A DNA stretch of 64,000 nt, from assembly GCA_963924555.1 (NCBI GenBank), contig OZ004585.1, forward strand, positions 3,237,488 through 3,301,487, written 5' to 3'. The translations under genes and the position numbers were made by a program. Shown in pieces: positions 28,100 through 53,900 of this stretch; the first letter of the stretch is position 1; each line of letters starts with the position of its first letter. The notes under the pieces are model-generated. The model did no database searches, was not told the DNA's origin, and saw nothing but the letters and a program-made list of their open reading frames with translations. This stretch comes from Crambe crambe. Its lineage: Eukaryota; Porifera; Demospongiae; Poecilosclerida; Crambeidae.

Positions 28100-31000
28100 T
28101 GCATTTCCCCTCAAAATGGTACTGGGAATAACGCCTACTGTGTGATCAGTGACATGCATTCTCCTGACATGTAGCTAGTCAAGAACATCCATGATAGATA
28201 TATGTTCCCCTGACATGAAATTTGCAGCAAGGTAGTATTAATGCAGTACTACTGATCTGCGATACACATGTGGTACCTTGCCTGACATGAGGTTCCTCAC
28301 CTGAGGAATCATTTTAGTTAAGGAATTAGTAGGGGAATCACATATACCTGATCAATGATAATGTGATCCCCTGACATGAAATTTGTAGCAAAGGGGATTC
28401 CTGATCAGTGCCAGTATAATATTATTCTTGCTTGACCCAAAATCTCACCTGAGGTTTCTTTTAGTGAAGGGGAAACACATATCCCTCAGTGATATTTGTC
28501 CCCTGACATAAAATTTGCAGTGAAGGGATTATATATTCCTGACCAGTATGGTCTGACATATTTATTCCTCACCAGAGGTTACTTTTAGTGAAGGAATAAG
28601 CAGGGGAACACATATCCCTATGCATTCCCTGACATGAAGTTTGCAGCGAAGGGATTATACATTCCTGATCAATATTCCTCACCAGAGGTTTCTTTTAGTG
28701 AAGGAATAAGCAGGAGAAACACATATCCCTGATCAGTGACATTTGTTCCCCTGACATAAAATTTGCAGCAAAGGGAATACACATTCTGATCAGTAGCTAC
28801 GTATACCCTTGCCTGAGTGATATATGTAAGGTAAAATCAATTAGCTATATCTCGTGACCTGATGTTTCTTTCTGTGAAGGAATAAGCAGGGGAAACACAT
28901 AGCTATATGCATTCCCCTGACATGAAATTTGCAGCAAAGGGATTATACATTCCTGATCAGTATACCCTGACATATGTAAGGTAAAAAAATCAATTACTTT
29001 TAGTGAAGGAATAAGCAGGGGAAACACACATCCCTGATCAGTGACATTGTCCCCCTGACATAAAATTTGCAGCAAAGGGAATACACATTCTTGATCAGTG
29101 TACCCTTGCCTGACATAAGATAAAATCAATTAGCTATACCTTACTTTTTGTGAAGGAATAAGCAGGGGAAACACATATCCCTGATCAGTGATATGCGTTC
29201 CCCTGACATGAAATTTGCATGCAAAGGGATTATACATTCCTGATCATTGTACCCTGACATACGTAAGGTAATAGTGAAGGAATAAGCAGGGGAAACACAT
29301 ATCCTTGATCAGTGATATGCGTTCCCATACATTCCTAATCAGTATACCCTGACATATGTAAGGTAAAAAATCAATTATTCCTCACCAGAGGTTTCTTTTA
29401 GTGAAGAAGTAAGCAGGGGAAACAGATATCCCTGATCAGTGATATGTGTTCCCCTAATATGAAATTTGCACCAAAGAGAATACACATTCCTGATCAGTGT
29501 ACCCTTGCCTGACACAAGGTGAAATCAATTATACCTTACCTGAGGTTCTTTTAGTGAAGGAAAGCAGGGGAAACACATATCCCTGATCAGTGATATGTGT
29601 TTCCCTGGCATGAAATTTGTAGCAAAGGAAATACACATCCCTGATCAGTGTACCCTTGCCTGACATGCAAGGTAAAACCTCACCAGAGGTTTCTTTTAGT
29701 GAAGGAGGAAACACACTGATCAGTGATATGCGTTCCCTGACACAGCAAAGGGATTATACATTCTTGATCAGTATACCCTGACATATGTAAGGTAAAAAAT
29801 TAATTATACCTCACCAGAGGTTTCTTTTAGTGAAGGAATAAGCAGGGGGAACACATATCCCTGATCAGTGATATTCGTTCCCCTGACATGAAATTTGCAG
29901 AGAAGGGAATATACTATACATTCCTGATTAATATACTCCATGTAATGTAAAAAATCAATTATTCCTCACCAGAGGTTACTTTTAGTGAAGAAATAAGTAG
30001 GGGAAACAGATATCCCTGATCAGTGACATGAAATTTGCAGCAAAAGGGTAAAATACACATACTTGATCAGTGTACCCTTGCCTGACATAAGGTAAAATTA
30101 ATTATACTTCACCAGAGGTTTCTTTTAGTGAAGGAATAAGCAGGGGAAACACATATCCCTGATCAGTGATATGCGTTCCCCTGATATGAAATTTGCAGCA
30201 AAGGGATTATACATTCCTGATCAATGTACCCTGACATATGTAAGGTAATATTCCTCACCAGAGGTTTCTTTTAATGAAGGAATAAGCAGGGGAAACACAT
30301 ATCCCTGATCAGTGATATGTGTTCCCATACATTCCTGATCAGTATACCCTGACATATGTAAGGTAAAAAATCAATTATTCCTCACCAGAGGTTTCTTTTA
30401 GCGAAGAAATAAGCAAGGAAACAGATATCCCTGATCAGTGATATGCATTCCCCTGATGTAAAAGTTGCAGCAAAGGAAATACACATTCCTGATCAGTGTA
30501 CCCTTGCCTGACATAAGGTAAAATCAATTATTCCTCACCAGAGGTTTATTTAGTAAAGGAATAAGCAGGGGAAACACATACCCCTGATTAGTGACATGCG
30601 TTCCCCTGACATGAAATTTGGTAAAATACACATTCTTGATCAATGTACCCTTGTCTGACATAAGGTAAAAATCAATTATAGGTTTCTTTTAGTGAAGGAA
30701 TAAGCAGGGGAAGCAGATAACCCTGATCAGTGATATGCGTTCCCCTGACCTGATTAATATACCCTGACATACGTAAGGTAATTCCTCACCAGAGATTTCT
30801 TTTAGTGAAGGAATAAGCAGGGGAAGCACATATCCCTGATCAGTGATATGCGTTCCCTGACACAGCAAAGGGATTATACATTCCTGATCAGTATACCCTG
30901 ACATATGTAAGGTAAAAGATGAATTATTCCTCACCAGAGGTTACTTTTAGTGAAGAAATAAACGGGGGGAACACATATCCCTGATTAGTGATATGCATTC

Positions 31001-31440
31001 CCTTGACACGAAGTTGGCAGCGGAGAGATTATAGTGATATTTCTGATCATCATTTTGCTGAATATAAGATTTATTACTACCCTTGGTTGGGCATAATAAT
31101 TTCACTTGGCCTATGGCCTCTTGAAATATTGCCACCATGTAATAAGTCATGATAATATTATTCAAAGCATGAATGTGCAATAAATATTAATTATATCTCA
31201 CTTAAATTTAGTGAAGGAATTAGCAAGGGAAACATATGCATTCCCCTGACATAAAATCTGAAGCAAAGGGATTATACGTGTATACCCTTGCCTAAATCTT
31301 ACCCGAGGTTTCATGAAGGGGGCCCCGATCAGTGATGTGTTCCCCTGACATACTGATGTATAATCCCTTTGCTCTGATCAGGGATGCTTATTTGTATCAG
31401 GACTGTATCTTTGCTGCAAATTTCATGTCAGGGGAACGCA
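28100..31440 (+). repeat. Array of ~150-bp tandem repeats (unit A)
   Basis: About twenty imperfect copies of a module. In order it contains CTCACCAGAGGTTTCTTTTA, GTGAAGGAATAAGCAGGGGA, ATCCCTGATCAGTGATATG, CCCTGACATGAAATTTGCAG, a CCTGATCAGTATACCCT segment and ACATATGTAAGGTAAAA. Many copies are shortened by internal deletions. Each full copy holds two TGATCA palindromes. Near 31320-31440 the module appears in reverse orientation (ATTTCATGTCAGGGGAACGC), just upstream of the transposon promoter. Confidence 0.85.
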
Positions 31441-31852
31441 TAACGAAATTGATGTTGAAGAAAAAGTATATTATTATAAGGTCTAAATTCTCAATTTTAT
31501 TTTCTTAAGTGTCCGCAACCATCCCCTATAAGTATTCTTCCCTAGGGCCCTCTCATGCATAAGTAACTATGACTGAGCATGCTCAGTTTCAATCCATATG
31601 CAAGGTCGACCGTGCCTACTTATGTGACCACACCCACCACTGAGTAAACCTGAAACAATAACAACAACAACAACAACAACAAATTAAATGTACAAAACAT
31701 AGTTGCTGTGTGGCCAGCTTTGGACAAGTTTTTTCTTGTTTCTTGATTTGTGCTGTTTGTGCACTATGTAATCCTTGTAGTGGTTTTAGTTTTGTGCATG
31801 TCTTTTCTTGTCTTTACACTCGGTGCATGTTTTTTCTTGTCTTGGTGATTTC

Positions 31853-31860
31853 TATATAAA
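31853..31860 (+). promoter_or_regulatory. TATA box of transposon gene, copy A
   Basis: TATATAAA lies about 95 bp upstream of the ATG at 31949. It is conserved with the surrounding sequence in copy B. Confidence 0.6.
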
Positions 31861-33037
31861 TAGGAGCATTTTAGTTGTAGTGCAGTTTATTGTAAAGTTC
31901 TATAGTTAGTGGGACGAAAAAATCTATCTTCTGATTGGGCTTTCATCTATGGATGATAAACAATATGAAGCTCTGTACCTTTATATTAATGATGGAAAAT
32001 ATCCCCTTGGATACAGCAAAAGTGAGAAGTTCGTGCTACGAAGGAGTAGTAAAAATTTCCTTGTTCAAGGAGAGCAGTTATTTTATATCTCCAAGAGACC
32101 TGATGGCACTTCCTTTAATTGTTTAGTACTACGTGGTCAAGAAGAAGCTGAAAGGGCTTTTTTAGAATGTCATTTGACTACTGGTGGTCACAGAGGGAGG
32201 GATGCTACCACGAGTAAGATAAAGGAAAGATACTATTGGCCTCTCTACTACAAAGAAATTGAAGAAAAGGTTTGTGTTTAAGCATAGGTTCACTTTTTGT
32301 TACATGGTAAAGAAAAGTTTTTATAGCTAATAAATGGTAATTCCCTCCCATGATATTTCTTTCTTATAAATATATAGTTCTTTAATGGGTGTGCAGGCAT
32401 TACCCGTGTGTATTTACAGTTATCCAGTGTGGATTTCTGTTGATTTATCAATGCTATCTACTAACTGATTCTGAGGGACCTTAATTGGTTCTACTTCTGC
32501 AGATCAAGAGATGTGACAGGTGCCAAAGGAATGCATCACAGCTCAAAAAAGCTGTAGTTGAGCTTCAACCAGTAGCTGTTGAGCCACAGGTGTGGTATCT
32601 GGTTGGAATGGACATAATTGGTCCTTTTCAAAAAAGTGCCAATTTCTCATATATTCTCACGATGACAGACTATTTCAGTAAATATGTTGAAGCAGTGCCG
32701 ATAGAGGATAAATCAGCAATCTCAGTGGCCAAAGCTATTTACAAGGTGTATTGTAGGCATGGAGCTCCTGTGAGCATTATTTGTGATCAGGGAAAGGAGT
32801 TTACAAATCAGGTTTTTTTTTTATATAATAGTTGACTGTTGATTTCCTTGTAAAGTTGAAATATCTTTTTGAAAGCTTATTGAAACACTTCATCAAAGCT
32901 TTATGGTCAAAATGCGGATTACCTCACCATATCATCCACAATCAAATGGCTTAGATGAACGAACTAACCAAACACTTAAGAGGTAAATGGTGGCACAGTA
33001 AATAGAGAAATCTTAGTCATCATCATCACATAATAAT

Positions 33038-33039
<2 letters not shown>

Positions 33040-33096
<57 letters not shown>
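33040..33096. repeat. (AAT)n microsatellite in intron, copy A
   Basis: A pure AAT/TAA run in the intron preceding the 33137-33541 exon. In copy B the same intron holds a longer, palindromic version. Confidence 0.9.
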
Positions 33097-33098
<2 letters not shown>

Positions 33099-35082
33099 TA
33101 AATTATTAATGCCTAATTTCATGTGCATTTCGATAGGTCACTATCCAAGCTCATGTATGATCACGATGATGACTGGTGTCACTATCTTGATGTTGCAGTC
33201 TTTTCAATTAATACAAGTATCCAGCTCACTACAAAGTATTCTCCATTTAGGATGATGTTTGGGAGAGAGCCACGTTTCCCACTGGAAGCAGAAAAACAGG
33301 GAGAGAGGGAATGGTTTGAAAATGTTTTAAATACTTCCGAAGACATTGAAGGAATAATGCAGAGATTTATCAAGAAGCAGCAAGATATCTTTGTGTCGGC
33401 TGAGCTGAACATACAAAAATCACAAAAAAAGTAGAAAGAGCAATACCTAAAGCGCAAAGGAATGCTGCAATATGGATTTAAAGGTGACATGGTATTGCGA
33501 AGAAATATGAGACAAAAGACAAAAAAAGGAGAAGACAGATGGTAATTTTGAAAAACTAAACATGGTCATGTTAATTTTGTAAATTCAGGTTGGGTCCATA
33601 TAAGATTTCAAATATGAAGAAGTCAACCTGCCAGCTAGAGACCAAACTGGGAAAAAGGCTGAAGACTCGTGTTAACCTCAGTCAGCTGAAACCTTACAGT
33701 CAGCCTACATTGGGTAATAATGATGCCATAGAGCAAATCTTACTACAGTTAATTTCACTAGCTAATAATACAAGGGTGTTAAATAATCAATAGTTGGACC
33801 CCATATCAAAAACTAAAGTGTTATGTATGATACAACAGGTCATAGCTTTCTTGTTAAAATTGAAGGCATTCCTTCATGTCCAAAATCTGAAATTCCTCCT
33901 CCTCCTCCTCCTCCCCCTGTTGTTGCTGCAGCTACTACTATTGCTACTAAAGAGGAAGTTTATGAACTTCCCCCTCCTGCAAAGAAATTCTGTGCCATCT
34001 CTGAAGAAAAACTTACATTAAGCAATTTGGTTAGTGAAGGTTAACTAATAAACTTCCTCTCCCTTCACTCCCAACTCAATCAGAAAAAATACTGTGGAAT
34101 TACCAACAAAGAGAACAGTTGTTGGTTGATATCATGCATACAGTTATTAATAAATGGAACAAATATTCATCACTTCCTCCATGGTAAGTTCTGCAAATAG
34201 CATGATGTAACTAGCTATGAAATATGATACCAAAAGGTATGAGGAGCACCAAACAAAATCTGAAATAATTATTAATTTTCACTTAACAATTTTTCTTCTA
34301 GTCCATGCTCAAGAGTAGCCTAGTTGGTTCTGCACAACAGGATGCAGCTGAAGGTTTGCAGTGCTTAATAAACAAATTGACAGAATGTATTAACGTAAGT
34401 AGTTTAACACACTGATACTATCTAGATGAAACTATGGAGATCTCAATTTCATTTTATGCAGGAAGATGCACTCCTTACCTTCTCATATTTAAGTCAGTCA
34501 TATTGCACTTTTTGCCATAATGGAGGAACCAAAAAGGTATACTCATAATGACTGTGATCGACATACATTAGATGTTCTAAGTCATTTCTTGCCCTAGCTA
34601 CATATGATACATGTTTATTTCTTATCAGTTCAGTGATATTGCAGTGGAAGAACATAATATTTTATATTGCTCTCTCGGTAAATCTCATGAAGATATTGCA
34701 GTAAAGGATCTGATTACCACAAATTATGACCTTGAAAGAGTCACCAAAGGACCTAATGACAGGTATTAATATCTATAATTATAACTACTATGGCTGTAAT
34801 AATATTCTGGATACAGAAGGTGCACGAACTGTTTCAAGCCAGGAGGAATATATGTGACCTCAAAACTAAAAATGCCCCTAAGTACACTTGTAAAAGGACA
34901 CTAATGTTTGGCAGAAAGAGGTCAGGCCCTCCAAGAAGATCAAACAGGCCAGTCACCATCCAAAGGTGAAACTCTATGCCATTATAGTATTGCCACCCTA
35001 TTATTCTTCTGCATTCCAGAAAAATGAATTTGAAGCTTGATAATGGTCATGAGATTCAATATGACCTACAAGGTTTTATAGT

Positions 35083-35086
<4 letters not shown>

Positions 35087-35141
<55 letters not shown>
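35087..35141. repeat. (TC)n microsatellite in intron, copy A
   Basis: A long CT run directly after the 35020-35080 exon of the transposon gene. It is also present in copy B (46886-46930), where it is shorter. Confidence 0.9.
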
Positions 35142-35145
<4 letters not shown>

Positions 35146-37698
35146 CATTGAAAATAGTAGTTGCATCATGGTACCACAATAAAAAGTGGACATTGTAAGT
35201 TTTCACCAAATACGTAAGCTACCTGTAGACTATGATAATCATGATTTTTTTTCATTTCTTAGACACTGCTTACACTCTGACTCAGCAAGATACTTTAATC
35301 CACTTCAATGATGTACAAGTTTCAGAAGTAGAAAGTAGTATTATTGAGTCTACTTATATCCAGGTATACACTAGAATCACATTAATTTCATGCATCAATT
35401 AGTATTAATTCTATGCAGAGGAATGTAATCATTACCCCTCAAATATCAGGAAGAATTATACCTCTCTATAGCTACCACGATTACTTTCTACAACCTACAC
35501 AACATACATTCAGGTACATATTTTGAAGACTGATGTCAGTAATTTATAAATGGAATTAAAGGTAACTCATAATGTATATGTAGCAGTTATACTTATCATG
35601 ATCGCATATCGTTTAATAGGACTTCAGCATTGAGGAGGAAATGAAGGTATAGCTATAAGTATACTTAACTAGCTGGTGATCATAATGATAGCTGAAAATG
35701 ATTGCAGGAGAACTGAGTGCTTTTGTTATCTTTGTAGATTGTTTCATCTTTCAGTGACTCGCTGTTAGAATCAAGCTTATGGAGATTAAATGATGGTGAA
35801 TGGCTGGATGATGTGGTAAATAATGTAAATGCATTATCAAATGCATGCATGATGACAAAAGGGCTCATTTGCTCGTAGATTATCAACAAATATTTTTCAC
35901 TTATTGTTGATGAGAGTGCTTCTGATGCTAAGGTGAGATGACTAGCTGCTGCTCTCATTCTTATATCTATTATAAATAGCTCAAAGTTGCAGCAGCAAAT
36001 ACCTTTTTTGGTACCTCCTTTTTGTTGCATGGTTATATTAAATCAAAGAAGTACTTCCCTGAGGTAAGAGTAGCTGTATTGAATTTGAATTCTGATGTCA
36101 GATATTATAATTTCCAGAAAAATTGCTTTGACAACAACATCATTTTAATTCCATGGAATATACACAGTTCTCACTGGATATTAGTGGTAATTAATAAAAT
36201 TCATTATACAACATTAATCATCAGGTTGTAAAACCAAAGAAAAGAAAAATGATCTACATGGACTCTTCTCTAGAGCTTTCCAATTTCAGTATTGAAAATA
36301 GTATTTGGTAAGACTATAAGCATGAAAATTAATGACACAGCTAAAGTGCCATAATTATTATAGGTATTTTTTATGTGAGTTGAGTCAGGAGTCTGGACAT
36401 ATAGGTGAAATGGACCAGACTGAGTGGAAGAGGTGGAATTCTGAAGTAAATGACTTGATTATTATAATTATGATTATTATCAATCTGTTTCACCACAGAT
36501 GGGATGTATGCCATTACAGACTAATACATCTGACTGTGGAATATTTATATGCATGGTAAGTTGAATGATTGACACAAAATTGTGCAAAACCATATTCCTG
36601 CACTTATTTATATGTCCCCCTCCCCCTTCTCCCTATAATCTTCACCCTGCACTGAATAATTATCTTATATATTATCTTACTTACAGGCTGCTCGCTTCAT
36701 AGTAATAGATAAAGTTCCTTCCTTCGGCCAGGTATGGTCAAAATTTGCTACTAATATTTTTTATTGTTGTAGCTAATAGGCTGACATACCTCACTTAAGG
36801 AGGGTGATGAAGAATGAGCTAAGACAGGGGAAATTGATGCCCATCAAATTCAAAGAAAATGGTGGCCAGGATGGTAGATTCTGTATGTAATTAAAATAAG
36901 GCAATAAACTATCATAATTGTAAGCAGAGTCCAAAAGAAGTGAATCAGATAATCAAAGTGAATCCAACAAGGAGTCAGGATCAAAAGTTAATGGTAATTT
37001 CAGCATAGTCAATAGGCTATGCATGTATCTGTCTTTGCAAAAAAATTTGCTAATCATGATAATCAGTCTGATTTTCAGCTCTTTTTATCATTAGATTTAA
37101 GTGATTCAGTATTACCAGCAAACTTTCTATTCCCATCCTTCCAAGAGGACCAAACAAAATTAATTATGATAGTGATGATATTTTCACTTTTGATAAAAAA
37201 AGCATAAAAGACAGGTGGCTGGATATAGCAAAAATATATTATTGTGATAAAAAAGGTCCTATTGCTTCAGACAGGTACATATAATAGGTGGTAGTATGCA
37301 TTAATGTTAGTCACTGTATCTTCAAGAGAGAATTTGTGAGAAGGGTGATCAAAGAAAATGAGGTAGCTATTTGATTTTAATACAAAACTATAATGGTGCT
37401 AATTGGCAGGAATTGTGGAGAGGAATCATAGAAGGAAGAGTTTCAAGTTCATACACTACATATCCTACACGTGCACAGAGAAAAAAAATAGCATCTCAAT
37501 GGCCTATAGAGCTGGTGGACTTGGTACATAATAATTATAGCTAGCTAATAATTATTCTACTATCTCTAATTTTTTTAGGGATTTGAAGTGGAGCATTATC
37601 TTAAAGCACTTCAGTGCGATGTGCAGCAGATAAACAATATCACGGGTCTTCATATAGCACAATTCATATTATGGCCAGGCAATGATCCAGCTCATTAA

Positions 37699-39193
37699 AG
37701 AACGATTTGAAATCAAAAGAACTGAAGCGGACAGAATATACAAAAATCAAATTTGTTTAAGCACTTTTAGCTAAAATTTACTATTTCTCACTATAATCTG
37801 TATAGCTACGTATACGAGCGAGCAGAGCGAGTGAGTTGACTCTCAGGTTATGAAATTGTAGATAGACTCCAAAATTCCCCATAAGATACGTATGTACATG
37901 TCCTGAGTTAGTATATACCACCACCCCAAATCAGTAGCACCTGTCCCTATAGTATTTTAGGTGTGAAGAGGGATAGCTATGTTAATTCCTTCAAAGTCAA
38001 GCTTATGGTTTTCACTGATTATTGAACTCATATAGCGATTAAAATGGTTTCTGCACACCTATTATTTCTTTGTTTTGATACGTACAAATGGCACCCCAAT
38101 ATTATACTGTACTGATATGGGAAAAAAATAAAATTGGGTTGCGACTGATGATACTTATTGCTGGACATACATACATAGCTAAATGAAATACAGTTGAGAT
38201 AATTATTAGCTAAATCACTTATGGAACTTGGTGTTCCCCACTTGGGCTAATTTATTTAGTATTCGGGACATGTCATCATCACCTCCCTCATCATCAAAAT
38301 ATTGAATTTTTGATGAGGCATTTCAGACAAAAATTTGGTAAGATTTTATTCATTGACAATACCAAAGTACGATATTGAATATTGACTAAGTTCCCTCGAT
38401 CCCTCGATCCCTCATGGAAATCTGAAAATCTTGTGTCTGTGCACGTGTGGCCTTATCAGGGAAGTGAATATGTTCCTCTGCTGGTTCTTTCACTGTAAAT
38501 ATCATGTTGGGTGGCTCATACTTATCATTAGCTGGTTATACTACAGAGGTGGAGGAAGCAAATTTTCATTGGTGAGGGAAAAACCATGCATAGAGATTTT
38601 ATTGCAAGCCATATAATTTGAAGCCTGAAAACGATTTTTTTTGCAATGCTGATTTCTCATTCGGTGCTCATCCCCACTCTACATTAAAGTCCAACTTCTC
38701 TGCTTTATTCATGTAAAAATGTTTATAGAGAAAATGGTTCAATTGTGCCTGTCCCATGGTAACTTATTCCACTGTGGCTATGGCCTATTTTGCTTGCTTT
38801 TATTTTTTAGTTAGCTAGCTAGCTAAATCCACTGTCCTTTTTTTCCTTTGCTAAATCTTCAATCATTATGGGCGTGGCAGCGAATTGGTGTGCGTTAATT
38901 AGAGATCGCTCTGAAGCGCTGTAGAACTAGAAAGCTGCGACACTGCGACTTAGCTCAGGTTTACAACATTATAAGATTACTTTAGGCTTTAGTAATTTTT
39001 CAATATTGGTTCGGCAGCTGCCGGGTCTGCCGGGCCGGTTCCGGCGCCCCTGTACTAGCTAGTTTATCATGTCATGTCCCTTACAATTCAGCTACACGGA
39101 ACGACTAGCTACGTTGCAAGAGACTATAGCTACAGATAATAGCAAGAGACTACAGATCGTAGCTATAGCTAGCTATTCGCGATGGAAACATTC
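37699..39193. other. Transposon 3' flank, no gene seen
   Basis: Shared with 49630-50640 of unit B. It contains a dispersed repeat at 37815-37895 (CGAGCGAGCAGAGCGAGTGA then TTGACTCTCAGG) and GC-rich phrases near 39015-39050 (CTGCCGGGTCTGCCGGGCC). No exon was recognised. Confidence 0.4.
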
Positions 39194-39330
39194 TACCCGG
39201 GGAAACATATGGTGGCCGAGAAGGGTCACTCGCGACCGCTTCGCAAATATTCACTGCCGCTGTTGCAGTGATTTCTGTTTCCCCGGGTTGCGTGTTTCCC
39301 CGCACATATAACCCTAGGGAGGAATGTTTC
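39194..39330. repeat. Junction segment J between duplicated units
   Basis: It runs from CCCGGGGAAACATATGG through GGCCGAGAAGGGTCAC and GTTTCCCCGGGTTGCG to CTAGGGAGGAATGTTTCCC. It is present in inverted orientation at 50702-50886, so unit B is bracketed by inverted copies. It also has internal GGGGAAACA/TGTTTCCCC symmetry. Confidence 0.7.
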
Positions 39331-39754
39331 CCAACGGGGGGTCAAAGGTCATCACAAAGTTTCCAGGGCTGGATGTTTCCTTGGTTCTTGCTTGCGGCGC
39401 TGCATCAGAGCTCCTAGCCAGCTTTTTAGTTGCAGTTTTCTCTCTGACAGGTATCATGTAACCAGTCATGTTTAATATTTGGTCCTGCGATTGTTGTCCA
39501 TAGCAATTGGCCTATGACTGCTGTCATCTCAGGTATCTATAGCTGCATCTAGTCCAGACACATTAATTTTTTATCAAGGAGTGATAATGCAGGATTATAG
39601 AACCAGGCACTCAAGAGCAATTGGTCTCCAAATAAGAAATGCAACGTACTTGAAGTGATGGAGACTAGAATAACCAGTCTTCTTACAGCACAGTTCCTAC
39701 TGTGGCCAGAGATCATAACTAGCTATAGTAATTGTTGATTATAAGATTATGCAC

Positions 39755-42700
39755 ACTTTTAGTGAAGGAATAAGCAGGGGAAACACATATCCCTGATCAG
39801 TGATATGCGTTCCCCTGACATGAAATTTGCAGCAAAGGGATTATACATTCCTGATCAATATACCCTGATATATGTAAGGTAATATTCCTCACTAGAGGTT
39901 TCTTTTATTGAAGGAATAAGCAGGGGAAACATATATCCCTGATCAGTGATATTGTTCCCCTTACATAAAATTTGCAGCAAAGGGAATACACATTCCTGAT
40001 CAGTGTACCCTTGCCTGACATAAGATAAAATCAATTAGCTATAATGACCTGATATTTCTTTTTGTGAAGAAATAAGCAGGGGAAACACATACCCCTGATC
40101 AGTGATATGTGTTCCCCTGACATGAAATTTGCAGCAAAGGGATCATACATTCCTGATCAGTATACCCTGATATATTATGTAAGGTAAAAAATCAATTATT
40201 CCTAAACCACCTTTTTGGACATGTGATTCAGGGCTCGCTTGCTAGCTGCTACTAAAAAGGAGTCTGGGGCATGGCTACATGCGTTGCCAGTATCGTGTCT
40301 TGGACTGAGACTTGATGATGACACCATTAGAATTGCTGTTGGCCTGTTACCTCATCTCTGTAGTCACTGTGGTTCCCCTGTAGATGTCCTTGCCACTGCA
40401 GAAAGAGTTAGGGGAGACATTTGAGGCATAGTTCCATCAATGCCTTGATAAAAAGATCTTTATCATCTGCAAAAATCCCATCTAAATTAGAACCAAGTGG
40501 AATCAGTAGAAGTGACGGAAAGAGACCTGATGGAGTCACCCTTTGCCCTTGGTATGGGACTTCACTTTTTCTATATTGCACGTCAGCCTGGCTGCTTGAA
40601 GCACGAAATGTGGCTAATGAAGCGGAACACAAGAAGAAGGTCAAATATTCAAACTTAGGAGATCAGTACCTCTTTGTCCCGTTGGCAGTGGAGACATCAG
40701 GATCCTTTGGTTCAGCTGCCATGTCATTCTTTGGAGAAGGATTAGGGAAAACACTGGGGAGATAAAGTCTTACTTTTATTTAGTGCAGAGATTGTCCATA
40801 GAGATACAAAGAGGCAATGCTTCTGCTGTGCTGGGGACTTATTAACTTTAACCATATTATAGTTTTTTTGTTTGTTTGTTTGTTTATTTTTTTGTTTTTT
40901 TGTTGGCATTTCATTATTGATTCTCCGTTTCCGGATTCCCATCTCATTTTTGTATCTAGAACTCGTTATTATTATTATTATTATTATTACAGTCATGTTA
41001 TCGTTTTTGTTTTTGTTTTCCACTAGCTTTCTTCTTGGTATTTGTTTGTTCTAGAAAAAAAACTTCTGATCCTGAAGTTGAATTTACACCTGTTTAAAAA
41101 AAAGAAGAAAAAACCTCATCAGAGGTTAGCTACTTTTAGTGAAGAAATAAGCAGGGGAAAGATATCCCCGATCAGTGATATGCGTTCCCCTGATATGAAA
41201 TTTGCAGCAAAGGGGATACACATTCTGTACCCTTGCCTGACATCAATTATACCTAACCTGAGGTTTCTTTTAGTGAAGAAATAAGCAGGGGAAACACATA
41301 TCCCTGATCAGTGATATGCGTTCCCCTGATATGAAAGTTGCAGCAAAGGGAATACATATTCCTGATCAGTGTACCCTTGCCTGACACAAGGTAAAATCAA
41401 TTAGACTCTATACCTTACCTGAGGTTCTTTTAGTGAAGGAATAAGCAGGGGAAACACATATCCCTGATCAGTGATATGTGTTCCCCTGACATGAAATTTC
41501 CAGCGAAAGGATTATACATTCCTGATTAATATACCCTGACATACGTAAGGCAATATTCCTCACCAGAGGTTTCTTTTAGTGAAGGAATAAGCGGGGGAAA
41601 CACATATCCCTGATCAGTGATATGTGGCCATGATACAGCAAAGAGATTATACATTCCTGATCAGTATACCCCGACATATGTAAGGTAAAAAATCAATTAC
41701 GTATTCCTCACCAAAGGTTTCGTTTAGTGAAGGAATAAGCAGGGGGAACACATATCCCTGATCAGTGATATTTGTTCCCCTGACATGAAATTTGCAGTGA
41801 AGGGAATATACTATACATTCCTGATCAGTATACCCTGACATGTAAGGTAAAAAATTATTCCTCACCAGAGGTTACTTTTAGTGAAGAAATAAGCAGGGGA
41901 AACAGATATCCCTGATCAGTGATATGCGTTCCCCTGATATGAAATTTGCAGCAAAGGGAATACACATTCCTGATCAGTGTACCCTTGCCTGACATAAGGT
42001 AAAATCAATTATACTTCACCTGAGGTTTCTTTTAGTGAAGAAATAAGCAGGGCGGGAAACACATATCCCTGATCAGTGATATGCGTTCCCCTGATATGAA
42101 ATTTGCAGCAAAGGGAATACACATTCCTGATCAGTGTACCCTTGCCTGACATAAGGTAAAATCAATTATACTTCACCTGAGGTTTCTTTTAGTGAAGAAA
42201 TAAGCAGGGCGGGAAACACATATCCCTGATCAGTGATATGCGTTCCCCTGATATGAAATTTGCAGCAAAGGGAATACACATTCCTGATCAGTGTACCCTT
42301 GCCTGACATAAGGTAAAATCAATTATACTTCACCTGAGGTTTCTTTTAGTGAAGAAATAAGCAGGGGAAACACATATCCCTGATCAGTGATATGCGTTCC
42401 CCTGATATGAAATTTGCAGCAAAGGGAATACACATTCCTGATCAGTGTACCCTTGCCTGACATAAGGTAAAATCAATTATACTTCACCTGAGGTTTCTTT
42501 TAGTGAAGAAATAAGCAGGGGAAACACATATCCCTGATTAGTGATATGCATTCCCTTGACATGAAGTTGGCAGCAAAGAGATCATAGTTATATTCCTGAT
42601 CATTATTTTGCTGAATATCAGATTTATTACTTACCCTTGGTTGGGCATAATATTCCACTCAGCCTATGGCCTCTTGAAATATTGCCACCATGTAGTAAGT

Positions 42701-43075
42701 CATGATAATATTATTCAAAGCATGAATGTGCAATAAATACCTCACTTGAATTTAGTGAAGGAATTAGCAAGGGAAACATATGCATTCCCCTGACATTATT
42801 CCTGATCAGTGTATACCCTTGCCTGACATGAGGTAAATCTTACCCGAGGTTTCATGAAGGGAGTGATATGTGTTCCCCTGACATACTGATGTATAATCCC
42901 TTTGCTCTGATCAGGGATATATTTTCCTGCTTATTTCTAAGAGATATAAGCTATAATATCAGGGTATCTGTATCTTTGCTGAAAATTTCATGTCAGGGGA
43001 ACACATATCACTGATCAGGGATATGTGTTTCCCCTGCTTATTCCTTCACTAAAAGAAACCTAAGGTGAAGTGAAC
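39755..43075 (+). repeat. Array of ~150-bp tandem repeats (unit B), interrupted
   Basis: The same module as in unit A, at 39755-40200, 41115-42560 and 42740-43075. Copies between 41860 and 42520 are very similar to each other, suggesting recent local expansion. The last part (about 42860-43070) is in reverse orientation and contains GGGAACACATATCACTGATC. Confidence 0.85.
40230..40765 (+). pseudogene. C-terminal fragment of a retroelement polyprotein
   Basis: Two overlapping frames read [20 protein letters not shown], then [13 protein letters not shown], then (after a frameshift near 40420) an ALIKRSLSSAKIPSKLEPSG segment, RSDGKRPDGVTL and KVKYSNLGDQ, ending TLGR and a stop. From memory this order occurs at the C-terminal end of reverse-transcriptase-like ORFs in many invertebrate genomes. 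It is truncated at its 5' end, lacks the RT core, and is inserted inside the repeat array of unit B only. Confidence 0.6.
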
Positions 43076-43456
43076 GAAATTGATGTTGAAGCAAAAGTAT
43101 ATTATAAGGTCTAATTTTTCTCAATTTTAATTTCTTAAGTGTCCGCAACCATCCCATATAAGCATTCTTCCCTAGGGCCCTCTCATGCATGCATGAGTAA
43201 CTATGACTGAGCATGCTCAGTTTCAATCCATATGCAAGGTCGACCACGCCTACTTGTGTGACCACACCCACCACTGAGTAAAACAACAGCAACAACAACA
43301 ACAACAGTTGCTGTGTGGCCAGCTTTGGACAAGTTTTTTCTTGTTTCTTGATTTGTGCTGTTTGTGCACTATGTAATCCTTGTAGTGGTTTTGGTTTTGT
43401 GCATGTCTTTTCTTGTCTTTACACTCGGTGCATGTTTTTCTTGTCTTGGTGATTTT

Positions 43457-43464
43457 TATATAAA
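43457..43464 (+). promoter_or_regulatory. TATA box of transposon gene, copy B
   Basis: TATATAAA lies about 100 bp upstream of the ATG at 43563, conserved with copy A. Confidence 0.6.
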
Positions 43465-44657
43465 TAGGAGCATTCTAGTTGTAGTCAGTTTATTGTAAAG
43501 TTCTATAGCTAGTGGGACGAAAAAATCTATCTTCTGATTTGGCTTTCATCTATCCTTCAAACATGGATGATAAACAATATGAAGCTCTGTACCTTTATAT
43601 TAATGATGGAAAATATCCCCTTGGATACAGCAAAAGTGAGAAGTTCGTGCTACGAAGGAGTAGTAAAAATTTCCTTGTTCAAGGAGAGCAGTTATTTTAT
43701 ATCTCCAAGAGACCTGATGGCACTTCCTTTAATCGTTTAGTACTATGTGGTCAAGAAGAAGCTGAAAGGGCTTTTTTAGAATGTCATTTGACTACTGGTG
43801 GTCACAGAGGGAGGGATGCTACCACGAGTAAGATAAAGGAAAGATACTATTGGCCTCTCTACTACAAAGAAATTGAAGAAAAGGTTTGTGTTTAAGCATA
43901 GGTTCACTTTTTGTTACATGGTAAAGAAAAGTTTTTATAGGTAATAATATGGTAATTTCCTCCCATGATATTTCTTCCTTATAAATATATAGTTCTTTAA
44001 TGGGTGTGCAGGCATTACCCGTGTGTGTTTACAGTTATCCAGTGTGGATTTCTGTTGATTTATCAATGCTATGTACTAACTGATTCTGAGGGACCTTAAT
44101 TGGTTCTACTTCTGCAGATCAAGAGATGTGACAGGTGCCAAAGGAATGCATCACAGCTGAAAAAAGCCGTAGTTGAGCTTCAACCAGTAGCTGTTGAGCC
44201 ACAGGTGTGGTATCTGGTTGGAATGGATATAATTGGTCCTTTTCAAAAAAGTGCCAATTTCTCATATATCCTCACAATGACAGACTATTTCAGTAAATAT
44301 GTTGAAGCAGTGCCAATAGAAGATAAATCAGCAATCTCAGTGGCCAAAGCTATTTACAAGGTGTATTGTAGACATGGAGCTCCTGTGAGCATTATTTGTG
44401 ATCAGGGAAAGGAGTTTACAAATCAGGTATTTTTTAAAAATAATAGCTGACTGTTAATTTCCTTGTAAAGTTGAAATTCTTTTTATATTGAAAGCTTATT
44501 GAAACACTTCATCAAAGCTTTATGGTCAAAATGCGGATTACCTCACCATACCATCCACAATCAAATGGCTTAGATGAATGAACTAACCAAACACTTAAGA
44601 GGTAATGGTGGCACAGTAAATAGAGAAATCTCCTTAGTCGTCATCATCACATTAATG

Positions 44658-44778
<121 letters not shown>

Positions 44779-46883
44779 CCTAATTTCATATGCATTTCAA
44801 TAGGTCACTATCCAAGCTCATGTATGATCACGATGATGACTGGTGTCACTATCTTGATGTTGCAGTCTTTTCAATTAATACAAGTATCCAGCTCACTACA
44901 AAGTATTCTCCATTTAGGATGATGTTTGGGAGAGAGCCACGTTTCCCACTGGAAGCAGAAAAACAGGGACAGAGGGAATGCTTTGAAAATATTTTAAATA
45001 CTTCTGAAGACATTGAAGGAATAATGCAGAGATTTATCAAGAAGCAGCAAAATATCTTTGTGTCGGCTGAGCTGAACATACAAAAATCACAAAAAAAGCA
45101 GAAAGAGCAATACCTAAAGCGCAAAGGAATGCTGCAATATGGATTTAAAGAAGGTGACATGGTATTGCGAAGAAATATGAGACAAAAGACAAAAAAAGGA
45201 CATAAAAATGAAGACAGATGGTAATTTTGAAAGACTAAACACAGTCGTGTATTATTTGTTAATTTTGTAAATTCAGGTTGGGTCCATATAAGATTTCAAA
45301 TATGAAGAAGTCAACCTGCCAGCTAGAGACCAAACTGGGGAAAAGGCTGAAGACTCGTGTTAACCTCAGTCAGCTGAAACCTTACAGTCAGCCTACATTG
45401 GGTAATAATGATGCCATAGAGCATATCTTACTACAGTTAATTTCACTAGCTAATAATACAAGGGTGTTAAATAATTTATAGTTGGACCCATATCAAAAGC
45501 TAAAGTGTTATGTATGATACAACAGTTCCATGGGGTCATAGCTTTCTTATTAAAATTGAAGGCATTCCTTCATGTCCAAAATCTGAAATTCCTCCTCCTC
45601 TTCCTCCTCCTCCTCCCCCTGCTGTTGCTGCAGCTACTACTATTGCTATTAAAGAAGAAGTTTATGAACTTCCCCCTCCTGCAAAGAAATTCTGTGCCAT
45701 CTCTGAAGAAAAACTTACGTTAAGCAATGTGGTAAGTGAAGGTTAACTAATAAACTTCCTCCACCTTCACTCCCAACTCAACCAGAAAAAATACTGTGGA
45801 ATTACCAACAAAGAGAACAGTTGTTGGTTGATATCATGCATACAGTTATTAATAAATGGAACAAATATTCATCACTTCCTCCATGGTACGTTCTGCAAAT
45901 ACCATGATGTAACTAGCTATAAAATATGATACCAAAAGGTATGAGAAGCACCAATGAAGTCCAGGTTGAGTATTGTGATATCTGTAAGTCATTGGACATG
46001 CATCAATCAGTGAATATTCTATGCTTAAAGGTACAAAATCTGAAATCGTTATTAATTTTCTACATTATTACTTAAACAATTTTTCTTCTAGTCCATGCTC
46101 AAGAGTAGCCTAGTTGGTTCTGCACAACAGGATGCTGCTGAAGGTTTGCAGTGCTTAATAAACAAATTGACAGAATGTATTAACGTAAGTAGTTTAACAC
46201 ACTGATACTATCTAGATTAATAATGAAACTATGGAGCTCTCGATTTCATTTTTATGCAGGAAGATGCACTCCTTACCTTCTCATATTTAAGTCAGTCATA
46301 TTGCACTTCTTGCCATAATGGAGGAACCAAAAAGGTATACTCATAATGACTGTGACTGTTTCACCTATTCTAAGTCATTTCTTGCCCTAGCTACATATGA
46401 TACATGTTTATTTCTTATCAGTTCAGTGATGTTGGAGTGGAAGAACATAATATTTTATATTGCTCTCTTGGTAAATCTCGTGAAGATATTGCAGTAAAGG
46501 ATCTGATTACCACAAATTATGACCTTGAAAGAGTCACCAAAGGACCTAATGACAGGTATTAATATCTATAATTATAACTACTATGGCTGTAATAATATTC
46601 TGGATACAGAAGGTGCACGAACTGTTTCAAGCCAGGAGGAATATATGTGACCTCAAAACTTAAAAATGCCCCTAAGTACATTTTTATCACTTGTAAAAGG
46701 ACACTGTTTGGCAGAAAGAGGTCAGGCCCCCCAAAAAGATCAAACAGGCCAGTCACCATCCAAAAGTGAAACTCTATGCCATTATAGTATTGCCACCCTA
46801 TTATTCTTCTGCATTCCAGGAAAATGAATGTGAAGCTTGATAATGGTCACGAGATTCAATATGACCTACAAGGTTTTATAGTG

Positions 46884-46885
<2 letters not shown>

Positions 46886-46930
<45 letters not shown>
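46886..46930. repeat. (TC)n microsatellite in intron, copy B
   Basis: CT run after the exon ending GGTTTTATA, at the same place as in copy A. Confidence 0.9.
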
Positions 46931-46932
<2 letters not shown>

Positions 46933-49900
46933 ATTATGAAAATAGTTGTTTTTTTTAAGCTGCATCATGGTACCACAACAAAAAGTGGACATTGTAAGTT
47001 TTCACCAAATAAGCTACCTATAGACTATGATAGTTTTCATTTCTTAGACACTGCTTACACTCTGACTCAGCAAGATACTTTAATCCACTTCAATGATGTA
47101 CAAGTTTCAGAAGTAGAAAGTAGTGTTATTGAGTCTACTTATATTCAGGTATACACTAGAATCACATTAATTTCATGAATCAATAATGAGTATTAATTCT
47201 ATGCAGAGGAATGTTGTAATCATTCTCTACTCTACTCCTCAAATATCAGTAAGAATTACCTCTCTATAGCTACCACGATTTAATACTTTCTACAACCTAC
47301 ACAACATACATTAATATTCAGGTACATATTTTGAAAACTGATGTCAGTAATTTACAAATGGAATTAAAGGTAAATCATAATGTATACGTAGCAGTTATAC
47401 TTATCATCATTGCGTATCATTTAATAGGACTTCAGCATTGAGGAGGAAATGAAGGTATAGCTAGTGATCATAATGATAGCTAAGTTTCTGAATAATGATA
47501 ACACATTTCGCAGGAGAACTGAGTGCTTTCGTTATATTTGTAGATTGTTTCATCTTTCAGTGACTTGCTGTTAGAATCAAGCTTATGGAGATTAAATGAT
47601 AGTGAATGGCTGGATGATGTGGTAAATAATGTGAATGCATTATCAAATGCATGCATGATGATAAACGGGCTCGTTTGCTCGTAGATTATCAACAAATATT
47701 TTTCACTTATTGTTGATGAGAGTGCTTCTGATGCTAAGGTGAGATGACTAGCTGCAGCTCTCTACTGCTCTTATTCTTATATCTATTATAAATAGCTCAA
47801 AGTTGCAGCAGCAAATACTTTTTTTGGTACCTCTTTTTTGTTGCATGGTTATATAAAATCAAAGAAGTACTTCCCTGAGGTAAGAGTAGCTGTATTGAAT
47901 TTGAATTCTGATGTCAGATATTATAATTTCCAGAAAAATTGCTTTGACAACAACATTATTTTAATTCCATGGAATATACACAGTTCTCACTGGATATTAG
48001 TGGTAAGTAATAAAATTCATTATACAACATTAATCATCATTATTACACAGGTTATAAAACCAAAGGAAAGAAAAATGATCTACATGGACTCTTCTCTAGA
48101 GCTTTCCAATTCTAGTATTGAAAATAATATTTGGTAAGACTATAAGCATGAAAATTAATGACACGTGCAGCTAAAGTGCCATAATTATTATAGGTATTTT
48201 TTATGTGAGTTGAGTCAGGAGTCTGGACATATCGGTGAAATGGACCAGACTGAGTGGAAGAGGTGGAATTCTGAAGTAAATGACTTGATTATTATAATTA
48301 TGATTATTATCAATCTGTTTCACCATGCACAGATGGGATGTATGCCATTACAGACTAATACATCTGACTGTGAAGTATTTATATGCATGGTAAGTTGAAT
48401 GATTGACACAAAATAGTGCAATGTTGTGCAAAACCATATTCCTGCACAGATTCAGGCAACAACCCATGTACTTTGTATTTATACGTCCCCCTCCCCCCTC
48501 TCCCTATAATCTTCCCCCTGTACTGAATAATATCTTACTTACAGGCTGCTCGCTTCATAGTAATAGATGAAGTTCCTTCCTTCAGCCAGGTATGGTATGG
48601 TCAAAATTTGCTACTAATATTTTTTATTGTTGTAGCTAATAGGCCGACATACCTCACTTAAGGAGGGTGATGAAGAATGAGCTAAGACAGGGGAAATTGA
48701 TGCCCATCAAATTCAAGGAAAATGGTGTAGATTCTGTATGTAATTAAAATAAGGCAATAAACTATCATAATTATAAGCAGAGTCCAAAAGAAGTGAATCA
48801 GATAATCAAAGTGAATCCAACAAGGAGTCAGGATCAAAAGCTAATGGTAATTTCAGCATAGTCAATAGACTACATGTATCTGTCTTTGCAAAAAAATGAA
48901 CTTAAATTTGCTAATCATGATAATCAGTCTGATTTTCAGCTCTTTTGATCATTAGATTTAAGTGATTCAGTATTGCCAGCAAACTTCCTATTCCCATCCT
49001 TCCAAGAAGACCAAACAAATTATGATAGTGATGATATTTTCACTTTTGATAAAAGAAGCATAAAAGACAGGTGCCTGGATATAGCAAAAATGTATTATCG
49101 TGATAAAAAAGGTCCTATTGCTTCAGACAGGTATGTATAATAGGGGGAGTAATCTTATGGTAGCATGCAAAGCATTGATATTTTCATTAATATTAGTCAC
49201 TGTATCTTCAAAAGGGAATTTGTGAGAAGGGTGATCAAAGAAAATGAGGTAGCTATTTGATTTTAAATTTAATACAAAACTATAATGGTGCTAATTGACA
49301 GGAATTGTGGAGAGGAATCATAGAAGGAAGAGTTTCAAGTTCATACACTACATATCCTACACGTGCACAGAGAAAAAAAATAGCATCTCAATGGCCTATA
49401 GAGCTGGTGGACTTGGTACATAATAATTATAGCTAGCTAATAATTATTCTACTATCTCTAATTTTTTTAGGGATTTGATTATCTTAAAGCACTTCAGTGC
49501 GATGTGCAGCAGATAAACAATATCACGGGTCTTCATATAGCACAATTCATACTATGGCCAGAGGTGATAACTATGAAATTGGTGTATAGTATAGTATTAG
49601 TTGTATAGGCAATGATCCAGCTCATTAAAGAACGATTTGAAATCAAAAGAACTGAAGCGGACAGAATATACAAAAATCAAATTTGTTTAAGCACCTTTAG
49701 CTAAAATTTTGTTTTATGTAATTTCAGTGTTATTTCTCACTATAATCTGTATAGCTACGTATACGAGCGAGCAGAGCGAGTGAGTTGACTCTCAGGTTAT
49801 GAAATTGTAGATAGACTCCAAAATTCCCCATAAGATACGTATGTACATGTCCTGAGTTAGTATATACCACCACCCCGAATTAGTAGCACCTGTCCTTATA

Positions 49901-50701
49901 GTATTTAGGTATGAAAAGGGATAGCTATATTAATTCCTTCAAAGTCAAGCTTATTATGCTTTTCACTGATTATTGAACTCATTATAGCGATTAAAATGGT
50001 TTCTGCACTAGCTAAATGACACCTATTATTTCTTTGTTTTGATACATACAAATGGCACCCCAATATTATACTGCACTGATATGGGAAAAAAATAAAATTG
50101 GGTTGCATAAAGAAAGGACATAGCTAACCCTGACTGATGATACTTATTGCTGGACATACATACATAAACTAAATGAAACACAGTTGAGATAATTATTAGC
50201 TATAATATATGATGTAGAGGGAACTTGGTGTTCCCTAATTTCTTTAGTATTCAGGACATGTCGCTTAGGCCGAGCAGAGTTTATCGTCACCTCCCTCATC
50301 ATCAAAATATTGAATTTTTAGTGAGGCATTTCAGACAAAAATTTGAAAAATTGGTACATTTTATTCATTTGATTATCCAAAGTACAATATTGAATGGTGA
50401 CCAGGTTCCCTCCCTCATGGAAATCTGAAAGTCTTGTGTTTGTGTGGCCTTATCAGGGAAGTGAATATGTTCCTCTGCTGGTTCTTTCACATGTTGGGTG
50501 GCTCATACTTATTATTAGCTGGTTAATTAGCTAGTTTATCATGTCATGTCCCTTACAACACGGAACGACTGACTAGCTACGTTGCAAGAGACTAGCAGAT
50601 AATACAGATCGTAGCTATAGCTAGCTATTCGCGATGGAAACATTCTACCCGGGGAAACACTTACCACTGCCGGCAATGAATCTTCGCAGTTCAGTGCTCA
50701 A

Positions 50702-50886
50702 TGTGCGGGGAAACATTCCTCCCTAGGGTTATATGTGCGGGGAAACACGCAACCCGGGGAAACAGAAATCACTGCAACACCGCCCGCGGTATCCATAATA
50801 CCGCCAGCGTGCGAAGTGGTCGCGGGCATAGCTATGTCGCGGGTGACCCTTCTCGGCCACGCGCACGCCACCATATATGTACGTGT
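50702..50886. repeat. Inverted copy of junction segment J
   Basis: It starts GCGGGGAAACATTCCTCCC, passes through GGGTTATATGTGCGGGGAAA and GTGACCCTTCTCGGCCACG, and ends CCACCATATATG. This is the reverse complement of 39196-39330 with about 50 extra GC-rich bases in the middle. It lies just upstream of the glucuronyltransferase start. Confidence 0.7.
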
Positions 50887-50960: not shown

Positions 50961-53900
50961 ATGGGAAGAATGATGATCGTGCGTGTTAGTACTTGGCTCA
51001 AGTATTTACTAGCTCTTGTAGTTTTAGTGCTATTTAATATCTTGGTCTTGCATCATATCAACGAGAATAATATCGCTTGCCCTCCATGTAGAAGTGGTGA
51101 GTTGATTCTAATGTATATTCCAAAATAATGCACACCTTGCCTGCACTACTACCGATCGAGCCTGGCCATAGAGCTAGAGACGTATATAAATAATCTGCCA
51201 CACCTCCTGACCTGTTGTCCAGTGGAATAAATATGGTAACCCTTTAGGTGATCTTTATTTATTAGCTTGTTAGTTCGTGACCTGGTAGTCCCATCTTGTA
51301 TGATTGAGCAGATCATGTATGCATGCTTTAGACTGAAAGACAGTATTATACTTGGTGTCTATAAGATTTTCCTGTTTTCTGCTAGAGGACTGCAATCATT
51401 ATCAAAATGTCATTCAGATCCAAAGAGAACTCATAGCAGGACTACGTAGGAATGCATCTAAGACAAAACTTCGAAATACAGTTAAATACTTAGATGAGAA
51501 TACCTCCATCTTACCCACAATATATGTTATCACTCCAACTTATGCACGATGGACACAAAAGGCTGACTTGACACGCATGTGCTCAACTCTCATGCACGTT
51601 CCAAATGTCCATTGGATAATAGTTGAAGACTCCGAAAAGAAAACTGCTCTAGTCACTAAGATGTTGTCTGGAAAATACAGCTGCAAAATAGAATATACAA
51701 CTCAATTGAACATAAGAACACCAAAAGAAAAAAGACTAGGTCCCAAGGATAAGCGGTGGACTAAGAGTAGAGGAATACTTCAGAGGAACTTGGCACTGCA
51801 GTGGTTGAGAGAGAGTGCTGCATCAGGAACGCTGGGAAATATAGATGGGAGGATTGATGGTGTGGTTTATTTTGGTGATGATGATAATACCTATGATCTC
51901 CAGCTCTTCAACGAGGTATGTATGTATAAAATCTAATTATGGGAAGTGTACCTATGTTAGAGGGCACAGTGGAATGTTCCCCTAAAATGTGGACTCTCTG
52001 ATTTGCAACTGAGTCAGCAAAAATTGCTGCACATGTTATCAGATAGCCAACTACGGATTGTGGATGTGTAGTGTTTGAAAGAAGAATACTATGACCTGTG
52101 TTCTGGCCCTTAATTGGACTGTTGTTTTTCAAGGGCAAACCATATGCTGCATTTTAATTTTCTAGAGAACAAGCTAAATAAACAACGTGAATATAATTTC
52201 CGCTCATGCCCGGGCAGAGCTTTGAACCAGGTGAGAGAAGCTAGTTTCTTGTTCCCCACCCCCCCCCCCCCCCCCCCCCCCAAGTGCTATGAAGCACCTA
52301 GGGAGGGAAGAGCAGCAAGGTAGTGTAGTTAGCTTAGTTTACGTATATCTCCAGCATATAAGCTGGAAAGCCAACTTTAGTTTTAGCATCCTATAGCAGC
52401 CAGGTTGGTCTAAAGGGAGGAACTGGTGGAGTGACAACTTTTACAATTCCACTACATTGCTAAGTTAGCTTCAAAGTGTTTTTTTCTACTCGCTATGTAG
52501 TTGCATGGCCCCTAAAAATTACATTCTCGATTTATTGGGAGTGACCATTTCATTTTCCTTGAACTGTCAGCAGCTCTGTACACCAGTGGACACCAAGCAT
52601 CACTCAAAATGAGCTGCAACAAGACCCATTGTTTCCCATCTCCTCTCAGGTAGGGGGGTGTTCTCAAGTACCATGTACAAGTTAAATTTGACGGTTTGGC
52701 GGTCCATCTTGGAACCGCCAATAATAATGTCCACCAAAAGCTAGCTCTATAAGGCTAGGGTGGGGGGTGGGGCTCGAGTGTATCTCAATCTTGTGGAAGA
52801 CTACATAATAGCTAGCTAGCTCCATTTCCAGCTGTTTTATGATCATGATGGGTCTTCGAAAGTTCTTGAAGAAGGAGGAAGTGAGCAGGCAGCTGAATGT
52901 GGCCAACTACGTATATGTTGCCATCTGATATTACCGCAACAGCGTATGGGTCCTCCGAGTTCCCTTTGACAGCTGAATAACTCCCCCACGTTTTGATTTC
53001 AGATAGCCCTCGAACATAGCTAGTCAAGTGAAACTCCATGGCTTGCTCCTCCTGGCTTGCTTGGCGCTCGACTGATGGCATGCGCACACGGTATAAGAAT
53101 GTGTGCATGAGCACAAGTGCGCCGCCGCCAATAATAATGTCCACCAAAAGCCTTCCATGGTACAGACGCCAAATAAAACTCCCGCCAAAATTAACTCGTA
53201 TATGATACGTATGTAAAAGACTCTTAGCAGTGATCAGTTAGAGTGAGTATGCTCCAGACTGAGTGCATGTGCTCCATCTCTACTGCATGATCTCATGGTA
53301 CAAGCTTACAGCTTTATTTGCAAGATGTTTGATTTTTCTCCTTCTTGTCTCAGTCCCTCAAAGAAACAAAAGCTACATATTTCCTCCCAACAAAAACAGA
53401 GAGAGAGAGAGAAAGAAATAGTAAAGCAATTATATAAGTGGTTCATTGACCTTGACCTGTTAGTGAGCTTCTATACCAGAAAAACCCTCCTCAACATCAA
53501 AGCAAGAATTTTTACACTCCTGTATTCGGCCACCAGCAGACGCTGCCATTCATAACAAACAGCATGAAGTTAGACAAGAACAGTTGCAGTTACAGGAGTA
53601 GAGGGAAATGGAGCTCCTGCAGCATTCCACTAGAAGTTTGAATGTTCACTATCCGATCACATAATATTCCACAAATCATTTTAATTTTATTGGAAGGGAC
53701 CCCATGATCATACACAAGAGTAATACTTCAGCACTCGTTCATGTCTACTGCAGCTGCTTGCCAAGTCTTGAGTGTTGATCTCTTGTGAGAGTCATTTGCA
53801 GTTATCCAGCCTATCTAGCTCGGATACCTCGGTGACTTGAAAAATGAACTAGATAGCTACAGAACAAGGTACATGTTGCCATCTAGACCTCAGCTCCAGG

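Follow-up and report, generated by a model that had tools for sequence, protein, structure and literature searches.

One gene in the genome of the sponge Crambe crambe appears to encode an integrase-type transposase together with two proteases, one of the USP type (family C19) and one of the Ulp1 type (family C48). It lies in a stretch of 64,000 nucleotides (GenBank assembly GCA_963924555.1, contig OZ004585.1, positions 3,237,488 to 3,301,487 of the forward strand), hereafter called the window, which holds two copies of the element that carries the gene, copy A and copy B. The element is probably a Ginger1-type cut-and-paste DNA transposon with a single gene for integrase, USP, Ulp1 and a conserved C-terminal part. 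Its placement in Ginger1 rests on the element ends, the 4-bp duplication and the integrase motifs. The genome that was searched is the 143-Mb assembly of 119 contigs, in which the window is located on contig C8. Besides the studied element, termed Fam1, three further families of this genome (Fam2, Fam3 and Fam4) share the order integrase, USP, Ulp1; such relatives had been proposed as a check in an earlier sequence-only reading of the window. That reading had described copy A (31949..37698) as a single gene of a Ginger1-type element with a USP between integrase and Ulp1. The domains, their order and the type of element are borne out by the ends, the duplication, the motifs, the in-phase exons and the three other families, whereas the gene is not intact, copy A being broken. 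The reading did not mention copy B, in which the gene begins about 11.6 kb downstream of that of copy A.

Domains and structure of the gene

The Pfam profile search revealed Integrase_H2C2, rve, UCH (USP/C19) and Peptidase_C48 (Ulp1) in that order. For the spliced protein of copy B (1000 residues, with X at its one stop) the UCH match has an E-value of 1.6e-22 and covers positions 1-247 of the 254 of the profile; the other E-values are 2.7e-14 for Integrase_H2C2, 1.1e-12 for Peptidase_C48 and 7.2e-12 for rve. No OTU domain is listed among the Pfam matches of this protein. In copy A Integrase_H2C2 and rve were matched at 1.7e-15 and 7.1e-12. Among PDB sequences the Ulp1 part of copy B matched SENP1 at 7e-19 and the USP part matched USP14 at 3.4e-6. 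These motif matches are far above chance. The integrase, USP and Ulp1 motifs which the sequence-only reading had pointed out in copy A were all found in place with the residues claimed, and since UCH was matched in the profile search it had suggested, the USP assignment was not refuted on that ground.

The spliced USP and Ulp1 parts measure 282 and 223 residues. The USP part of copy B comprises the Cys box NSCWL, QQDA, two CxxC pairs, the His box HHG...SGH-Y and HFND, and the C48 part comprises the H (SHW), D (MDS) and Q plus C (LQTNTSDC) boxes. The GPY motif, DRWLGPYKI, was recognized by reading; that piece has no profile match in Pfam. In front of the zinc finger a stretch KYP...NF...LFY resembles, by eye only, the YPYY motif of Ginger1.

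The modelled gene consists of 33 exons, whose phases permit one reading frame. In copy B there is one in-frame stop, in e3, while USP and Ulp1 are open. The gene model continues beyond Ulp1 into the conserved C-terminal part (48644-49704 in copy B), which has about 218 residues and is similar in Fam2. This part has no Pfam match above the cut-off. RTC4 scored 17.5 bits against a cut-off of 23.7 and was not seen in Fam2, and this identity is therefore not claimed. An Rfam scan at the gathering score gave no match. The positions of all features are given in Table 1.

Table 1. Features of copies A and B, numbered from the first nucleotide of the window.
Feature	Position	Strand	Basis
Copy B, Ginger1-type element (probable), both ends, 11,519 bp	39261..50779	+	ends, repeats, empty sites
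Left terminal inverted repeat, 72 bp, starts TGTTG	39261..39332	+	end comparison
Right terminal inverted repeat (72 bp), exact reverse complement of the left one	50708..50779	-	end comparison
Target site duplication CCGC, left	39257..39260	.	flanks and empty sites
Target site duplication CCGC, right	50780..50783	.	flanks and empty sites
Copy B exons e1-e6 of the integrase, with zinc finger, DDE, GPY motif and proline-rich linker; in-frame TGA in e3	43563..45731	+	profile, reading
Copy B USP (C19) exons e7, e7b, e8-e14, without stop	45786..47148	+	UCH, E 1.6e-22
Copy B linker exons e15-e17, which connect USP and Ulp1 in phase; e15 is RNVVIILYSTPQIS	47207..47454	+	exon comparison
Copy B Ulp1 (C48) exons e18-e25	47544..48589	+	Peptidase_C48, E 1.1e-12; SENP1, 7e-19
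Copy B C-terminal exons e26-e32, no stop before the terminal one	48644..49704	+	similar stretches in Fam2, partly Fam4
Copy A, broken copy of the same element	31949..37698	+	self-comparison, alignment
Copy A integrase exons	31949-33713	+	reading
Copy A in-frame TAG in integrase, between DDE and GPY	33432..33434	+	reading
Copy A USP exons, with e7b mostly deleted and a frame break in e11	34084..35363	+	alignment
Copy A Ulp1 exons e18-e25	35738..36731	+	reading

Element ends, insertion sites and selection

The left terminus of copy B was found again at four of five left-end stretches taken from copies, and its right terminus at seven right ends of other copies; the left end of copy C18 is not in the stretch examined (locus L042). 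Both ends could be read in five copies, in which the flanking 4-mers are identical (B, C16, C10) or differ by one base (C11, C14). The five pairs are CCGG/CCGG (once), CCGC/CCGC, CCCC/CCCC, CCGG/CCGC and ACGG/CCGG, and three of seven right flanks of other copies read CCGG. We also looked for empty sites by joining the flanks of copy B, the second CCGC omitted, and searching the genome with the product. Among the 80 matches listed, 39 cross the junction without the element, 37 of these with unchanged length; the remaining 41 comprise both flanks of copy B, two partial matches and 37 short matches in inverted orientation. The empty sites are paralogous and support insertion with a 4-bp duplication. 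Judged by their sequences, copy B appears to have jumped into the terminal repeats of another element.

Such ends bear on the notion that the integrase is a remnant of a Gypsy retrotransposon (with long terminal repeats) beside host protease genes. The integrase is indeed Gypsy-like, and many other integrases of the genome match it at about 29-37% (among the 117 of 850 candidates scored in one search). However, the terminal repeats are inverted and not direct, a 4-bp duplication is present, and the whole unit, proteases included, recurs at many loci, which leaves this explanation a negligible chance.

The flanks of copy B (39208-39260 and 50784-50880) appear to lie inside the terminal repeat of a DNA element beginning TATGGTGGCC. 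That element in turn abuts the cut right end of copy A, so that there appears to be a nest of three insertions. Upstream of the gene both copies contain a degenerate minisatellite with units of about 140-155 bp (28197-31050 and 39755-42606); in copy B it lies inside the element, and its variable length may account for length differences between elements. In many copies a CT-rich simple repeat of variable length lies in the intron that precedes the HHG-SGH exon (46886-46932 and 35085-35142). An ordinary host gene adjoins the element, with an exon for a glycosyltransferase of family 43 at 51337-51936 on the plus strand (Glyco_transf_43, E 1.8e-30).

Copy A resembles copy B at 92% (31442-34252 against 43073-45954) and 87% (34253-38538 against 46033-50525) in the self-comparison of the window. 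Its exon e11 (34817-34965) has 149 nt against 156 or 159 in other copies, which breaks the frame; the GT donor after e15 is lost (35448), and most of e7b, present in copy B at 45939-46030, is gone. An inverted-repeat search of 31000-38600 did not find the element ends of copy A, and the terminal 10-mer of copy B is absent from the copy A ends and occurs within the window only at the two ends of copy B. A phase break between the Cys-box and QQD exons had been considered as a feature of a young subfamily; it was ruled out because the related loci L045, L046 and L047 reveal the missed exon e7b.

A DNA search with copy B detected at least 16 loci that each span about 0.9 kb or more, counting A and B. 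The alignment covers 13 of them, namely A, B and 11 further loci. At the junctions read, most copies retain the GT and AG signals. In 8 of the 13 aligned copies the USP exons e7-e14 contain no stop and keep the frame from end to end. Exon e1 is open in 4 of 13, a count affected by alignment slack at the start; e1 of copy A reads without a stop. The dN/dS ratios between B and A are 0.22 for integrase, 0.29 for USP and 0.25 for Ulp1 (Fisher test, p 2.9e-4, 0.013 and 0.0023), and those between B and C5 are 0.28, 0.27 and 0.24. Integrase rows with copy C9b (0.91-1.05) were set aside, as C9b has lost most of the integrase and is misaligned there. Integrase, USP and Ulp1 are thus under purifying selection between subfamilies.

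These ratios also concern the idea that the USP, as a captured host gene, is only a passenger that plays no part in transposition. The decay of USP exons in copies A, C6, C5, C9b and C11b would fit it. The USP dN/dS is nevertheless 0.13-0.30 in all nine pairs compared, like that of the integrase, and the catalytic residues are kept in four families which are only 43-60% identical in this part. A mere passenger is accordingly very unlikely.

Related families and the joining of the domains

Relatives were found by searches with three pieces, and four loci were read: L046 (Fam2), L044 and L045 (Fam3) and L047 (Fam4). Further copies are L048 and L049 of Fam2 and L050 of Fam4, about 95-99.5% identical in the main blocks. 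An integrase stretch precedes the USP exons in all four loci, in L044 as only the first two integrase exons, in part. Ulp1 follows the USP in L044, L046 and L047, but not in L045. USP and Ulp1 exons of copy B were recovered in L044-L047 by a search for AG...GT segments, which did not find e10 and the Ulp1 exons in L045 or e7-e9 in L044. In Fam2, 10 of the 20 exons e7-e25 match those of copy B in length to the nucleotide. Both Fam2 and Fam4 have G, R, R and Y as split codons at four junctions within the USP, this Y being that of SGHY. The integrase exon pattern is largely not found in Fam2 and Fam4. In the alignment all four families keep the catalytic C, H and N/D of the USP and the H, Q and C of Ulp1, and the catalytic D of Ulp1 is kept in the three families in which that exon was recovered.

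That USP and Ulp1 belong to one gene is well supported, because the exons e15-e17 join them in phase and e15 is recognizable in all four families. The fusion of integrase and USP is less so. Two genes, an integrase gene followed by a separate USP-Ulp1 gene, or even three, would agree with the proline-rich linker exon e6 that parts integrase from USP, and with the stronger divergence of the integrases than of the protease block in the comparisons with Fam2 and Fam4. Yet e6 meets e7 at phase 0 and stays open without a frame change in 9 of the 13 copies, and the in-phase exons e15-e17 speak against a further division, so that separate genes seem to us quite unlikely.

Several points weigh against the main reading. 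Its support comes from sequence. Both copies in the window are broken, and none of the 13 aligned copies is free of stops and frame changes across all three domains as aligned. In close pairs Ulp1 gives little or no sign of constraint, the differences being few: the synonymous to non-synonymous counts are 1:3 for B-C11a, 0:4 for B-C1 and 2:5 for C5-C9b (dN/dS 0.61). The exon search admitted only segments that agree with copy B in phase and length class; equal phase was therefore partly imposed, and the matches for e16 and e17 in some loci and for e22 in Fam2 are poor. No ends of Fam2, Fam3 or Fam4 could be located in the stretches examined.

The integrases of Fam1 and Fam2 are 40% identical and those of Fam1 and Fam3 64%. 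For the proteases the relation is reversed, with 60% (Fam1-Fam2) against 51% (Fam1-Fam3) in USP and 63% against 54% in Ulp1. Fam4 is 26-30% identical to the other three in integrase and 43-44% in USP. The USP and Ulp1 data favour a grouping of Fam1 and Fam2 and reject one of Fam1 and Fam3 (p-AU 0.016), while the integrase data (nine sequences, Fam4 left out) reject Fam1 with Fam2 (p-AU 1.5e-5). The simplest reading of this conflict suggests that integrase heads were exchanged before one protease block; the alternative is unequal rates. The conflict of the two trees suggests that the pair is an exchangeable cassette, with modest support from the protease side. The four-family integrase set, on the other hand, does not exclude the protease tree (p-AU 0.077). 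For the proteases only a small number of site patterns are informative (13:8:10 for USP plus Ulp1, 6:5:7 for Ulp1 alone), a point that slightly lowered our confidence. We give about even chances to the view that USP, linker, Ulp1 and C-terminal part were swapped as a unit between integrase heads.

Comparison with known elements and possible role

Ginger1 elements are described as having TGTNR ends, inverted repeats of 40-270 bp, 4-bp duplications (CCGG in 75%, CCGT/ACGG in 24%) and an integrase with zinc finger, DDE and GPY motif, and as carrying OTU or Ulp1, not both; a USP is not named in the accessible parts of that description (Bao, Kapitonov and Jurka 2010, PMC2836005). The C. crambe element agrees with them in its TGTTG ends, 72-bp inverted repeats, 4-bp duplication, zinc finger/DDE/GPY integrase and C-terminal Ulp1. 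It differs, as far as that account goes, in the joint presence of USP and Ulp1, in the additional conserved C-terminal part, in its length of 11.5 kb compared to about 2.6-7 kb and in about 32 modelled introns compared to 0-4. In the same text as available, C19 appears once, for the Trichomonas vaginalis protein XP_001314237.1 (transposase_11 plus Peptidase C19). There C19 is likewise fused to a DNA transposase, but the transposase is of another superfamily and Ulp1 goes unmentioned in the part seen.

When 3,460 candidates were searched with the integrase, 120 proteins matched at E <= 1e-20, and a UCH label occurs in none of these. Four (P0007, P0009, P0010 and P0028) combine, by precomputed Pfam labels, a Ginger1-like integrase with OTU in place of USP-Ulp1. 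The best match is P0003 from the sponge Dysidea avara, 55% identical over 49% of the query, with Ulp1 behind the integrase; this predicted protein begins inside the DDE core. In contrast to the C. crambe protein it has no UCH match at E <= 1, and its Ulp1 is 25% identical over 88 residues. As judged from these predictions, P0003 has a similar integrase and a different tail. In the cassette reading this would be a related integrase head that carries another tag-removing tail in another sponge. A search with the USP-Ulp1 part found no match among 5,837 candidates, and the alignment of this part from three families found two, neither labelled with both domains. Viral contigs gave no match. The literature searched, which covers few subscription papers and preprints, did not contain a report of the combination integrase-USP-Ulp1. 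New here, relative to the published definition as far as it was accessible, is a USP beside Ulp1 in a Ginger1-type element, which goes beyond OTU or Ulp1.

Within the same element the USP could also act on SUMO or another ubiquitin-like tag, in the manner of USPL1, and both proteases would then serve one pathway. Profile matches leave the substrate unfixed, and the Cys box reads CWL, presumably as in USPL1. Pfam has a separate family for USPL1. The kinship to USPL1 that the earlier reading had considered did not emerge: Pfam gave UCH for the USP part (plus UCH_1 for Fam2) and no USPL1-type family at E <= 0.1 in the scan of copy A or 0.01 in that of copy B, and USP14 aligns with this part at both the Cys box and the YDLQGFILHHG-SGHYTAY box. 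A SUMO-directed USP thus seems unlikely, with some chance left to it.

For the probable Ginger1-type element with a ubiquitin-directed USP the following course is conceivable. Integrase and proteases would be made as one chain, from a single transcript as predicted, and the integrase would join the element to CCGG-like sites. The fusion would bring both proteases to the insertion complex, where the USP may remove ubiquitin and Ulp1 may remove SUMO from the transposase or from repair or chromatin proteins at the site. The predicted activities on such putative substrates could spare the complex from degradation or SUMO-linked silencing, so that strand repair can finish. A role of such proteases in repair was suggested by Bao et al. 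2010 (PMC2836005). The USP-Ulp1 pair may have been passed between integrase lineages as one cassette.

With the same protease pair behind other integrases of the genome, it looks like a shared accessory kit, and transposase heads and protease tails may assort like modules. To our knowledge, the question why transposons carry proteases that remove ubiquitin or SUMO has not been answered. Both proteases in one chain, and exons that stay constant while the integrase partner changes, argue that the pair was selected for the sake of the element. If the cassette reading is true, the removal of both ubiquitin and SUMO would be a selected and portable function in such transposons.

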